The translations under genes were made by a program, and so were the position numbers. Shown here in pieces: positions 31,924 to 34,939 of a stretch of 64,000 nt of DNA. Source of the stretch: Zwartia hollandica (GTDB lineage Bacteria > Pseudomonadota > Gammaproteobacteria > Burkholderiales > Burkholderiaceae_B); assembly GCF_019923725.1 (NCBI RefSeq), contig NZ_JAHXRI010000007.1, positions 124,001 through 188,000 on the forward strand. The letters are read 5' to 3'. The number at the start of each line of letters is the position of its first letter. Positions within the stretch are counted from its first letter, which is position 1. A model generated the notes under the pieces. It did not search any database, was not told where the DNA came from, and worked only from the letters and a program-made list of their open reading frames with translations.

Positions 31924-32247
31924 ATGGAAAGAAAAGTGAATGATCTTGGCGGCCAACCCGCCGGTCCCGTCTGTTTAGACGAGCACCCCAGTACGCTTCA
32001 CGAGAAGCGCGTCGACGCACTGCAAAAAATACTCTCCGGTCCAAGGCTTGGCGTGTTCAGCAGCGATGCCATGCGGCGTGCGATTGAATCCAATACCGCC
32101 GAAGACTACAAGAGCATGCTTTATTACGACAAGTGGATTCGGGCCGTACGAGACCTCATCATCGAGCAGCAACTTGTCACAGCAAAAGAGATTGATGATC
32201 GTATCGCTGAGCTTCGGGTTCGCCTAGCAAAGACGGGGAAGCTATGA
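31924..32247 (+). CDS. nitrile hydratase beta subunit, N-terminal half as a separate chain
   Basis: A 107-residue helical protein matching the N-terminal half of nitrile hydratase beta. It corresponds to ScnB of thiocyanate hydrolase or the small beta-type chain of three-subunit nitrile hydratases. Recognisable are VNDLGGQPAGPV at the start and the helix pair SMLYYDKWIRAVRDLIIEQQ (about 66-85), equivalent to the YYxxW segment of beta subunits. The gene ends with an ATGA overlap into the next gene. The order N-half, C-half, alpha equals scnB-scnA-scnC. It is complete for this split form, not a broken beta gene. Confidence 0.82.
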   Translation: MERKVNDLGGQPAGPVCLDEHPSTLHEKRVDALQKILSGPRLGVFSSDAMRRAIESNTAEDYKSMLYYDKWIRAVRDLIIEQQLVTAKEIDDRIAELRVRLAKTGKL

Positions 32248-32564
32248 ACGCAATCCCTCCTCGCCCTGGACACGCACTCCCGCTTGGCGCTGCAGTACGC
32301 ATCAGAAAGCAACCACCCGAAGCACACTGTCGCACCCCGTACTACTTGCGCGGCGCACCAGGCGAAATTGCAGAGGTCCGTGGTCTCTTTCGGGACCCAT
32401 CCCTACTCGCTTTTCATAAACCAGGTTTACCCATGCGTATTTTGTATCGCGTCAAATTCAAACAAATTGATGTTTGGCCAAACTATGCTGGCAGCAAGAA
32501 CGATACCGTTGTTGCTGATATTTACGAACACTGGATCGAAGCGATTGCTGGAGAAAAAAAATGA
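32244..32564 (+). CDS. nitrile hydratase beta subunit, C-terminal SH3-like half
   Basis: A 106-residue chain equal to the C-terminal SH3-like barrel of nitrile hydratase beta (ScnA-like). The diagnostic segment HCRTPYYLRGAPGEIAEV carries the conserved Arg that contacts the oxidised cysteines of the alpha active site. LYRVKFKQIDVWP and VVADIYEHWIE complete the barrel. It overlaps both neighbours by ATGA, showing translational coupling and equal production of the three subunits. Confidence 0.86.
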   Translation: MNAIPPRPGHALPLGAAVRIRKQPPEAHCRTPYYLRGAPGEIAEVRGLFRDPSLLAFHKPGLPMRILYRVKFKQIDVWPNYAGSKNDTVVADIYEHWIEAIAGEKK

Positions 32565-33247
32565 GCGGCTCACATCATCACGATCACGATCACGATCACG
32601 ATCATGATCACGACAAGGCACACAGCCACCCACACTCACCACCCGCCCCGGATGACGATGACGGGTATGACCGCTACGAAGTCCTTTTGCAAACAGCTAT
32701 ACGAGAACTGCTTGACGAAAAAGGCATCATTAGCGCCGCAGAACTACACAGACAGATCGACTATCAGGACAGTCTGACTCCGGCTATCGGTGGAAAAATC
32801 GTCGCAAAGGCGTGGACAGAACCCGAGTTTAAGAAAAAACTCTTGGCTGATCCTCTCAAGGCAATCAATGAATCGTTTGAACTGGATATCACAACCCCTT
32901 TAGATCTGGTTGTTCTAGAAAATACGCCCACCGTACACAACGTCGTCGTATGTACCCTTTGTTCGTGCTATCCACGCATGCTGCTGGGCATTCCACCTGC
33001 CTGGTACAAATCACTGGACTATCGGTCTCGTGTCGTTGTTGAACCGCGTAAAGTGTTGGCAGAGTTTGGTACCGTGCTATCTGAAGAGGTAGAGGTGCGT
33101 GTCTCCGACAGTACAGCAGACTTACGTTTCCTAGTGTTACCAAATCGACCTGCAGGTACAGAGGGGATGACCCAAGCGCAGCTTGCAGAACTCGTATCCC
33201 GGGACTCCATGATTGGCACCGCCGTTGTGCCAGCACCCAGCAAATAG
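32561..33247 (+). CDS. nitrile hydratase alpha subunit, cobalt type, with His/Asp-rich head
   Basis: A 228-residue catalytic subunit. The metal-binding motif VCTLCSC (Cys131, Cys134, Cys136) has Thr in the position typical of cobalt enzymes and of thiocyanate hydrolase; two cysteines become sulfinate and sulfenate. GIPPAWYKSLDYRSRVVVEPRKVL and RPAGTEGMTQAQL are strongly conserved alpha-subunit segments. The first 25 residues contain 11 His and 6 Asp, an unusual head that could bind or store cobalt. It hydrates nitriles to amides or, if it is a true thiocyanate hydrolase, converts thiocyanate to carbonyl sulfide and ammonia. No activator, cobalt transporter or amidase gene is adjacent. Confidence 0.9.
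   Translation: MSGSHHHDHDHDHDHDHDKAHSHPHSPPAPDDDDGYDRYEVLLQTAIRELLDEKGIISAAELHRQIDYQDSLTPAIGGKIVAKAWTEPEFKKKLLADPLKAINESFELDITTPLDLVVLENTPTVHNVVVCTLCSCYPRMLLGIPPAWYKSLDYRSRVVVEPRKVLAEFGTVLSEEVEVRVSDSTADLRFLVLPNRPAGTEGMTQAQLAELVSRDSMIGTAVVPAPSK
32579..32614 (+). repeat. hexanucleotide repeat coding for His-Asp
   Basis: Six tandem CAYGAY units, the first four exactly CACGAT, encode (His-Asp)6 near the start of the nitrile hydratase alpha gene. Each unit adds two residues, so gain or loss keeps the reading frame. Confidence 0.9.
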
Positions 33248-33265: not shown

Positions 33266-34939
33266 ATGACTCAACAACACGTTAAGCCACGCCCAGCCGC
33301 TACCATTATTCTTGCCCGCAACAGCTCTGAGGGCGTTGAAGTATTGATGATGCAGCGCACGACTGCTGTGGACTTTGCGACAGGGATGCATGTTTTTCCC
33401 GGAGGGGCAGTAGACCCGACCGATCACCATCCAGAGATTGCCTCGCTCTGCGTTGACTTAGATGATCAGCGCGCGAGCCAGATGCTTGGGATTGAACAAG
33501 GTGGGCTAGCCTATTGGATTGCAGCAATCAGAGAGTGTTTTGAAGAGTCTGGCTTACTGCTTGGCTACCGCAACGAGCAAGACCTCGTGCGCTTGCAGGG
33601 TGAGGATGCTGAACGTCTGGCGACGCTTAGGCTTGAAATGGCGCAAAACAAGCTCAGTTTCGCCGACATCTTAAAGACAGAGCAATTTAGAGCCGCCACA
33701 GACAAAATCGCCTATTACAGCCACTGGATTACGCAGGCGGGTCGACCCAAGCGCTACGACACCAGATTTTTCGTCGCCCAAGCACCCGAGGGACAAACTG
33801 CGGTGCAAGACAACCACGAAACGGTTGGACAGGTATGGGTGCGACCAGAGCAAGCCATTGAGATGAATCGGGCAGGCACGATCGAGCTGATGTTCCCGAC
33901 AATTAAAACGCTCGAAAGTTTGAGTCCGTTCAACGTTGTGGAAGAACTTCTAGAGTACGCACGCACACCGAAACCAAAAACATTGATTGCCCCCTACACA
34001 GCGACTGCACGAGGCGGGGAGCAACATATCTTAATTCCTGGCGATTTCGCCTATACCGAGGTGCGCAAAATTGATCCCAATAACAAGGGGACAGCGCAGT
34101 CATATATCGAACCAGGCCAAGCAGTGTCACTCGGGGAGGCGATTACGCGTGTGACAGCCGCCAACCCAGGGATGATGACAGGTCCAGGCACCAACACCTA
34201 TCTTATCGGCGACGCTCAGCATGGTGTTGCCGTGATTGATCCCGGCCCTCTGCTCGAAGAGCATATTCAGAACATTATCAAGGCCGCAAACGCTCCAATT
34301 AAGTGGATTCTGTGCACGCACACGCACATCGATCACTCGCCTGCAGCCAAGAGCCTCAAAGAAAAAACAGGTGCGCAAGTTTACGGTAGACCTGCACCGG
34401 CTTATCCGAATCAGGATCAAACCTTTGCGCCGGACCATATCGTCGAACACAATCAAGTTCTAACGCTTGCGGGTACAACCCTGCGCGTGATCCACACGCC
34501 TGGCCATGCCTCGAATCAAGTTTGCTTCTTGCACGAAGGTCAAAAAATCCTCTTTACGGGGGATCACGTCATGCAAGGATCCACTGTCGTGATTAACCCG
34601 CCAGACGGAAATATGGCGCAATACCTCGACTCGCTCAGGCTCATCACTGCATACCCGATTGACTATCTGGCACCTGGGCACGGCTTTCTGTTGAGCGACG
34701 TTAACAACATTGTCGAACGACTCATCATTCATCGCTTAGGTCGCGAAAACAAAGTCTTGGCGGCTCTGCGCACAACGGGACAACCAGTGTCGCTTGAAGA
34801 GCTCGTCAAACACGCCTACTCAGACACAGACCAACGCTTGCACAAAGTTGCTATGCGATCACTTCAAGCCCATCTTGATAAACTACAGGACGAGGGGCGC
34901 GTACTCAACCAAAACGGCGCCTGGAGCCTCATTCACTAA
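33266..34939 (+). CDS. Nudix hydrolase fused to a LACTB2-like metallo-beta-lactamase
   Basis: A 557-residue two-domain protein. Residues about 8-235 form a NUDT19-like Nudix domain. The Nudix box begins at FPGGAVDPTD (44-53) and resumes at IRECFEESGLLL (88-99), interrupted by roughly 28 extra residues, as in the NUDT19 branch that hydrolyses CoA esters. Residues about 280-490 form a metallo-beta-lactamase fold with THTHIDH (351-357), TPGHAS and FTGDHVMQG. A winged-helix tail (about 490-557) is typical of LACTB2. It begins 18 bp after the nitrile hydratase genes. The joint substrate is unknown; acyl-CoA, nucleotide or RNA turnover are possible. Confidence 0.88.
   Translation: MTQQHVKPRPAATIILARNSSEGVEVLMMQRTTAVDFATGMHVFPGGAVDPTDHHPEIASLCVDLDDQRASQMLGIEQGGLAYWIAAIRECFEESGLLLGYRNEQDLVRLQGEDAERLATLRLEMAQNKLSFADILKTEQFRAATDKIAYYSHWITQAGRPKRYDTRFFVAQAPEGQTAVQDNHETVGQVWVRPEQAIEMNRAGTIELMFPTIKTLESLSPFNVVEELLEYARTPKPKTLIAPYTATARGGEQHILIPGDFAYTEVRKIDPNNKGTAQSYIEPGQAVSLGEAITRVTAANPGMMTGPGTNTYLIGDAQHGVAVIDPGPLLEEHIQNIIKAANAPIKWILCTHTHIDHSPAAKSLKEKTGAQVYGRPAPAYPNQDQTFAPDHIVEHNQVLTLAGTTLRVIHTPGHASNQVCFLHEGQKILFTGDHVMQGSTVVINPPDGNMAQYLDSLRLITAYPIDYLAPGHGFLLSDVNNIVERLIIHRLGRENKVLAALRTTGQPVSLEELVKHAYSDTDQRLHKVAMRSLQAHLDKLQDEGRVLNQNGAWSLIH

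Follow-up and report, generated by a model that had tools for sequence, protein, structure and literature searches.

A histidine/aspartate-rich head on the alpha subunit of a probable three-subunit cobalt nitrile hydratase, and its relation to activator proteins

Introduction

The route by which non-corrin cobalt enters nitrile hydratase (NHase) is a maturation question of industrial weight, and the locus described here raises it in a specific form. In the 64,000-nucleotide stretch of Zwartia hollandica DNA that we analysed (the window), a cobalt-type NHase alpha subunit begins with a dense His/Asp tract, and the original prediction proposed that this tract may replace the activator protein. 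Does it? The split-beta clade to which the enzyme belongs, mostly activator-less and with many long heads, offers natural variants that separate the head, the N-terminal half of beta (betaN) and the activator. In the mainly open-access literature searched, we found no paper on the heads of bacterial alpha subunits or the His tails of activators, nor an experiment on any member of the window's clade other than thiocyanate hydrolase, an enzyme that comes with an activator of its own.

Results

The alpha gene (32561-33247, + strand) encodes 228 residues starting MSGSHHHDHDHDHDHDHDKAHSHPHSPPAPDDDDGYDRYE, of which residues 43-221 match PF02979 with 251.3 bits (cut-off 27.2). Its metal-ligand motif CTLCSC, located by alignment at residues 131-136 (32951..32968, +), is of the cobalt type, as had been proposed, and C131, T132, L133, C134, S135 and C136 are invariant across 42 aligned alphas. 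The two preceding genes, overlooked in the original prediction, together encode a beta subunit split in two: betaN (31924..32247, +; 107 aa, AnhD/ScnB-like) matches PF21006 with 50.8 bits, and betaC (32244..32564, +; 106 aa, AnhE/ScnA-like) matches PF02211 with 67.2 bits and aligns to residues 132-217 of the cobalt NHase beta chain 3qxe_B. PF21006 and PF02211 thus lie in separate genes, and the neighbouring pairs betaN/betaC and betaC/alpha each share a 4-base overlap. Since the genes before alpha are the two halves of beta, the order betaN-betaC-alpha describes a three-subunit NHase, a gene set that varies an already known arrangement. We consider it likely that the locus encodes a three-subunit, activator-less cobalt NHase, or a close relative with a presumed nitrile-like substrate. 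An Rfam search of the window gave no match. Directly after alpha, at 33266-34939, lies a Nudix and metallo-beta-lactamase fusion gene and no activator; of the 86 split-type loci, 7 have such a gene next to alpha.

The tract itself, HHHDHDHDHDHDHDKAHSHPH, occupies alpha residues 5-25 (32573..32635, +), and an exact recount agrees with the 11 His and 6 Asp first reported ahead of the cobalt-type core. It is very probably translated, because the alpha ATG overlaps the preceding stop codon by four bases (ATGA), a GGAG lies just upstream, and a His-rich head is present in each of the 33 listed relatives whose cores are at least 70% identical, near-copies among them. Nor does it look like a chance composition: only 1 of the 408 stop-to-stop frames of at least 60 aa in the window packs at least 11 His into 21 residues. 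The fetched loci, near-copies among them, contain 44 such frames out of 5674 of at least 100 aa, and 43 of the 44 match NHase alpha or betaN, so that chance can be set aside.

Among 117 distinct heads with at least six His, the HXH spacing is found 620 times, whereas shuffling the heads gives 244 (sd 14); X is D in 392 of the 620 and otherwise mostly G, P, A, S or E. Codon use is mixed, with 238 CAC and 170 CAT, 184 GAT and 124 GAC, over 34 heads from the window and its close relatives. The excess of HXH spacing together with the mixed codons indicates that an alternating-His pattern is kept at the protein level while the number of repeats varies; from this we infer that the pattern would fit metal binding by the head, and the tract may plausibly bind metal. 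In the following, head strength is the largest number of His within any 20 residues, and a head is counted from five His upwards, with an automatic choice of start that may err in single rows (L036 and L163, for example).

The same data bear on a rather doubtful alternative, namely that repeat slippage makes the head grow and shrink as an almost neutral low-complexity extension. Slippage would account for a repeat number that differs among close relatives and for the 29 or more changes in the presence of a head of at least five His over the tree, which has 146 clustered alpha rows. However, the His-rich head is retained by all 33 close relatives, its codons are mixed, the HXH spacing persists while X changes, and headless rows cluster in certain lineages of the tree. 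We regard the head as a real, selected-looking feature that is common in the family, probably a fast-changing HxHxH extension of cobalt NHases that aids cobalt capture.

The premise that this alpha has no activator was borne out. None lies beside the gene, and in the window's genome (99.7% complete) a search with PF21006, which recognises P14K-type activators too, returned one place at E ≤ 1, betaN itself, and a P15K profile returned nothing at E ≤ 1. The same PF21006 search gave an activator-type match in 10 of 10 genomes of the window's family that have a fused-beta cobalt NHase (three of them with a split enzyme as well) and none in 25 of the 26 split-type genomes without a fused cobalt NHase, some of which are incomplete (G242, 65%, for instance); the sole exception, G252, also carries, where a contig ends, part of a further alpha. 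Because no activator appears beside the locus or in its genome and the search is positive in all ten fused-beta relatives, the premise can be accepted, and the window's enzyme probably matures without a dedicated activator.

The extra search by P15K profile was made because P15K-like activators are weak matches to PF21006 (four of four found, at E 0.0025 to 0.27). That profile reached E < 1e-60 in its four source genomes only, which is a control by construction; across the other 25 genomes of the family its best matches, G067 (E 0.001) and G262 (E 0.03), both fell on the split betaN itself, and the next three stood at E ≥ 0.257. A diverged activator could therefore be missed, given that P15K is weak in PF21006 and that the positives of the P15K profile are its own sources. 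A wider PF21006 search took in the 49 genomes behind the named loci, at least four of which (G665, G666, G667 and G669) repeat the family set. A split-type locus is present in 34, two of them classed by kin (L004, which is cut off, and L025, which is unclear and was wrongly labelled a fusion from a faint beta-N match). Exactly one PF21006 match was found in 15 of the 34, and two to five, unsorted by type, in the other 19, where activators are possible. Among the Actinomycetota split genomes, 12 of 13 have one match, and the thirteenth has a second below the cut-off. Adjacency is bounded by flanks of ~1.5 kb in part of the loci, and for L045, L046, L050 and L111 the absence of an adjacent activator means only that none is linked; the genome of L045 has an activator-type match on another contig. 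The window's genome also encodes three CobW-family GTPases, one of them at a distance of ~41 kb from alpha. Each is a possible helper, a point that counts against our best explanation; the family is present in 13 of 14 control genomes and is not diagnostic.

We then compared heads and activators over a sample of 212 distinct alpha cores. Where an activator gene adjoins, 61 of 100 distinct alphas have a head (44 of 80 when only loci collected independently of the His pattern are counted), equally long ones among them, as at L079 in the window's own genus (12 His in 20). Split alphas without an adjacent activator, thiocyanate hydrolases excluded, have a head in 59 of 78 cases and lie below the threshold in 19; split L035 has no His at all in the 60 residues before its core. 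On the tree of clustered rows, one branch, starred, separates 61 rows, 53 of them split, from 85 that are mostly of the fused-beta type, and heads occur on both sides of it. Over all clustered rows the head is present in 36 of the 52 alphas that lack an activator and in 46 of the 76 that have one (p 0.35), and independent pairs for head versus activator number two on the starred branches and three on all branches. The head as a mark of activator loss was thus rejected, there being no association over all rows. The suggested search of homologues did find the head in relatives and, since it also stands beside activators, it is common in the family and not peculiar to the window's alpha.

Part of the sample does lean the other way. 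Loci L003-L072 had been fetched by patterns including HHHDHDHD and are biased to heads, so that the counts were rechecked without them, clusters represented by a biased locus dropping out of the cluster-representative recheck. Once the clustered rows fetched by the His pattern and those of the Actinomycetota draw are set aside, a head is seen in 13 of the 14 split alphas that lack an activator versus 29 of the 48 activator-bearing alphas (Fisher p 0.025, kinship ignored), and the median head length outside that draw is 8.5 for split versus 5 for activator-bearing alphas (p 0.004, kinship again ignored); over all rows, a head-biased set, the medians are 6.5 without an activator and 5 with one (p 0.023). 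Longer split-alpha heads outside Actinomycetota fit a compensating role, and we count them against our best explanation. In the Actinomycetota draw the trend is opposite, with a head in 0 of 11 activator-less split rows, all eleven having fewer than five His, versus 3 of 11 activator-bearing rows (p 0.21).

That the His/Asp head is itself the cobalt chaperone that took over from the activator is, on balance, unlikely, and as it stands the claim is not supported. It would agree with the missing activator in the window's genome and with the associations just given, but it is opposed by the many heads beside activators and by the activator-less split alphas that have short heads or none. The His stretch of the fused NHase of Monosiga brevicollis, moreover, is reported by Yang, Bennett and Holz (2018) to be deletable with most activity kept. 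A precedent of the same logic exists in UreG, which has a His stretch where UreE is missing (PMC2770081); against the claim, the chaperone's job in the three-subunit enzyme of Streptomyces canus falls to the beta-N half (PMC7329996).

Headless alphas also fall into recognisable groups. No head is seen in L184 and L186, whose motif is CSLCSC (iron type), or in a group with CTLCSCTAF; a G3E-GTPase-like frame, read by eye, lies downstream of L184. Loci L144-L155 have headless alphas, mostly with CTLCSCTAF, a fused beta and no linked beta-N-type activator. An assignment of L144-L156 to the iron type proved mostly wrong, as CTLCSC occurs in 11 of the 12 shown and CSLCSC in L155, L156 being a fragment outside the count. 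L215 and L216 combine a fused beta and a thiocyanate-hydrolase-like alpha N terminus with the motif CSLCSC or CALCSC.

Several loci of the order beta-alpha-activator pair a headless alpha with an activator whose C terminus is a His/Asp or His-rich tail. Such tails occur at L059 and L195 (the same genome), are long at L191, L196 and L225, and are short at L194, L203 and L209; at L059, L191 and L196 the activator C terminus reads HGHDHRH followed by more His. A split beta is combined with a His-tailed activator at L124, whose alpha has no more than a slight head, and at L226, and the gene order alpha-betaN-betaC-activator is found at L124, L223, L224 and L226. The tract is therefore seen in three placements: at the alpha N terminus, as the linker of beta-alpha fusions and at the activator C terminus; in the activator-less split clade, alpha is the only carrier seen here. 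One cited paper reportedly concerns, by its title, the flexibility and charge of the P14K C-terminal domain. An activator tail of at least four His in 20 accompanies 4 of 45 headed versus 7 of 29 headless tree rows (Fisher p 0.097), and independent pairs of head versus tail on the tree were not significant. The activators with such tails beside headed alphas are those of L049, L080, L110 and L074, the last with scattered His, and 13 of 100 loci have neither a head (fewer than three) nor a tail (fewer than four). Since the activator of some headless lineages ends in the same His/Asp tract, we tentatively raise the possibility that the tract is a portable cobalt-collecting module of NHase maturation, and that in the split clade betaN and the head jointly replace the activator. 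A result from B. petrii speaks against this lead on the tails: a His tag on the P14K C terminus left activity comparable (PMC4761151).

Discussion

A close counterpart studied by experiment is the NHase of S. canus CGMCC 13662, AnhD-AnhE-AnhA, which has three subunits and no activator gene in the genome (PMC7329996). It resembles the window's enzyme in its beta split into N and C proteins, its gene order, its cobalt and its lack of an activator. The authors conclude that AnhD, the beta-N half, is both a metal chaperone and a swapping chaperone, in the form AnhD2-AnhA, and they describe direct cobalt insertion under reducing conditions besides the AnhD route (PMC7329996). It differs in its alpha: the predicted 21.33 kDa of AnhA, as given there, is too small to leave room for a long head. 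L214 is likely kin of S. canus, its betaN beginning with the residues MARINDVGG specified by the anhD primer; it has one His in its head and one PF21006 match in its genome. As a proxy only, it lies across the starred branch from the window, on a long branch of its own; if it is a fair one, the beta-N role seen in S. canus may not carry over, because L214 falls outside the window's clade.

We accordingly favour, as the more probable reading of our analysis, betaN as the cobalt and subunit-swapping chaperone, with the head as an aid that is neither universal nor a substitute for a chaperone; these roles are divided in this way mainly because AnhD acts as a chaperone, AnhA is small and L214 is nearly headless. 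BetaN and betaC together would stand for the usual beta subunit, and alpha would carry the CTLCSC cobalt site. BetaN, a homologue of the P14K/P15K activators, would bind alpha as AnhD2 does AnhA in S. canus, give cobalt access to the cysteine site of alpha and pass holo-alpha on to the full complex. The His/Asp head, presumably a flexible HxHxH tail able to bind cobalt, may raise the local cobalt concentration or buffer cobalt near the apo site.

The cobalt NHase of Pseudomonas putida NRRL-18668 (3qxe) shares with the window a cobalt alpha with a His head, MGQSHTHDHHHDGYQ, but has a fused beta and a P14K activator; the protein begins GQSHTHD, and P14K mediates its cobalt uptake (PMC3511329). 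The Monosiga brevicollis enzyme likewise has a His-rich stretch, of 17 residues, before its alpha domain, but it is a eukaryotic beta-alpha fusion in which the stretch is a linker (PMC3323583). Bacterial counterparts of the opisthokont fusion occur at L042, L047, L055, L057 and L060, where a single frame encodes a beta-N domain, a His/Asp linker and then alpha, the linker reading HHHHHHDHDHDHDHD in L055, L057 and L060; no beta-C profile match was found in these fusion frames or the fetched flanks.

That the window encodes a thiocyanate hydrolase instead of an NHase is highly improbable: although ScnB-ScnA-ScnC has three subunits in the same gene order and lies on the same side of the starred branch, and in the PDB betaN is best matched by 2dd4_B, a thiocyanate hydrolase beta chain (E 5e-6), the window's alpha scores 207.7 bits on TIGR03887, far under the cut-off of 291.45 and the 385-397 of the four matches above it, and comes nearer to the NCBIfam equivalog TIGR01323 (244.7 bits, just under the cut-off of 249.85), and the thiocyanate hydrolases have a P15K-like gene beside alpha in 4 of 4 cases found, with heads of 1 to 5 His, whereas no P15K was detected in the window's genome.

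The neighbourhoods of split-type loci give a hint at a substrate pathway. Among 86 such loci, an ABC ATPase frame (a mixed cluster) lies near 15, two importer permeases near 6 and 5, and an isochorismatase-like hydrolase, named by eye, near 7, with L006, L007 and L132 as examples of loci with such neighbours.
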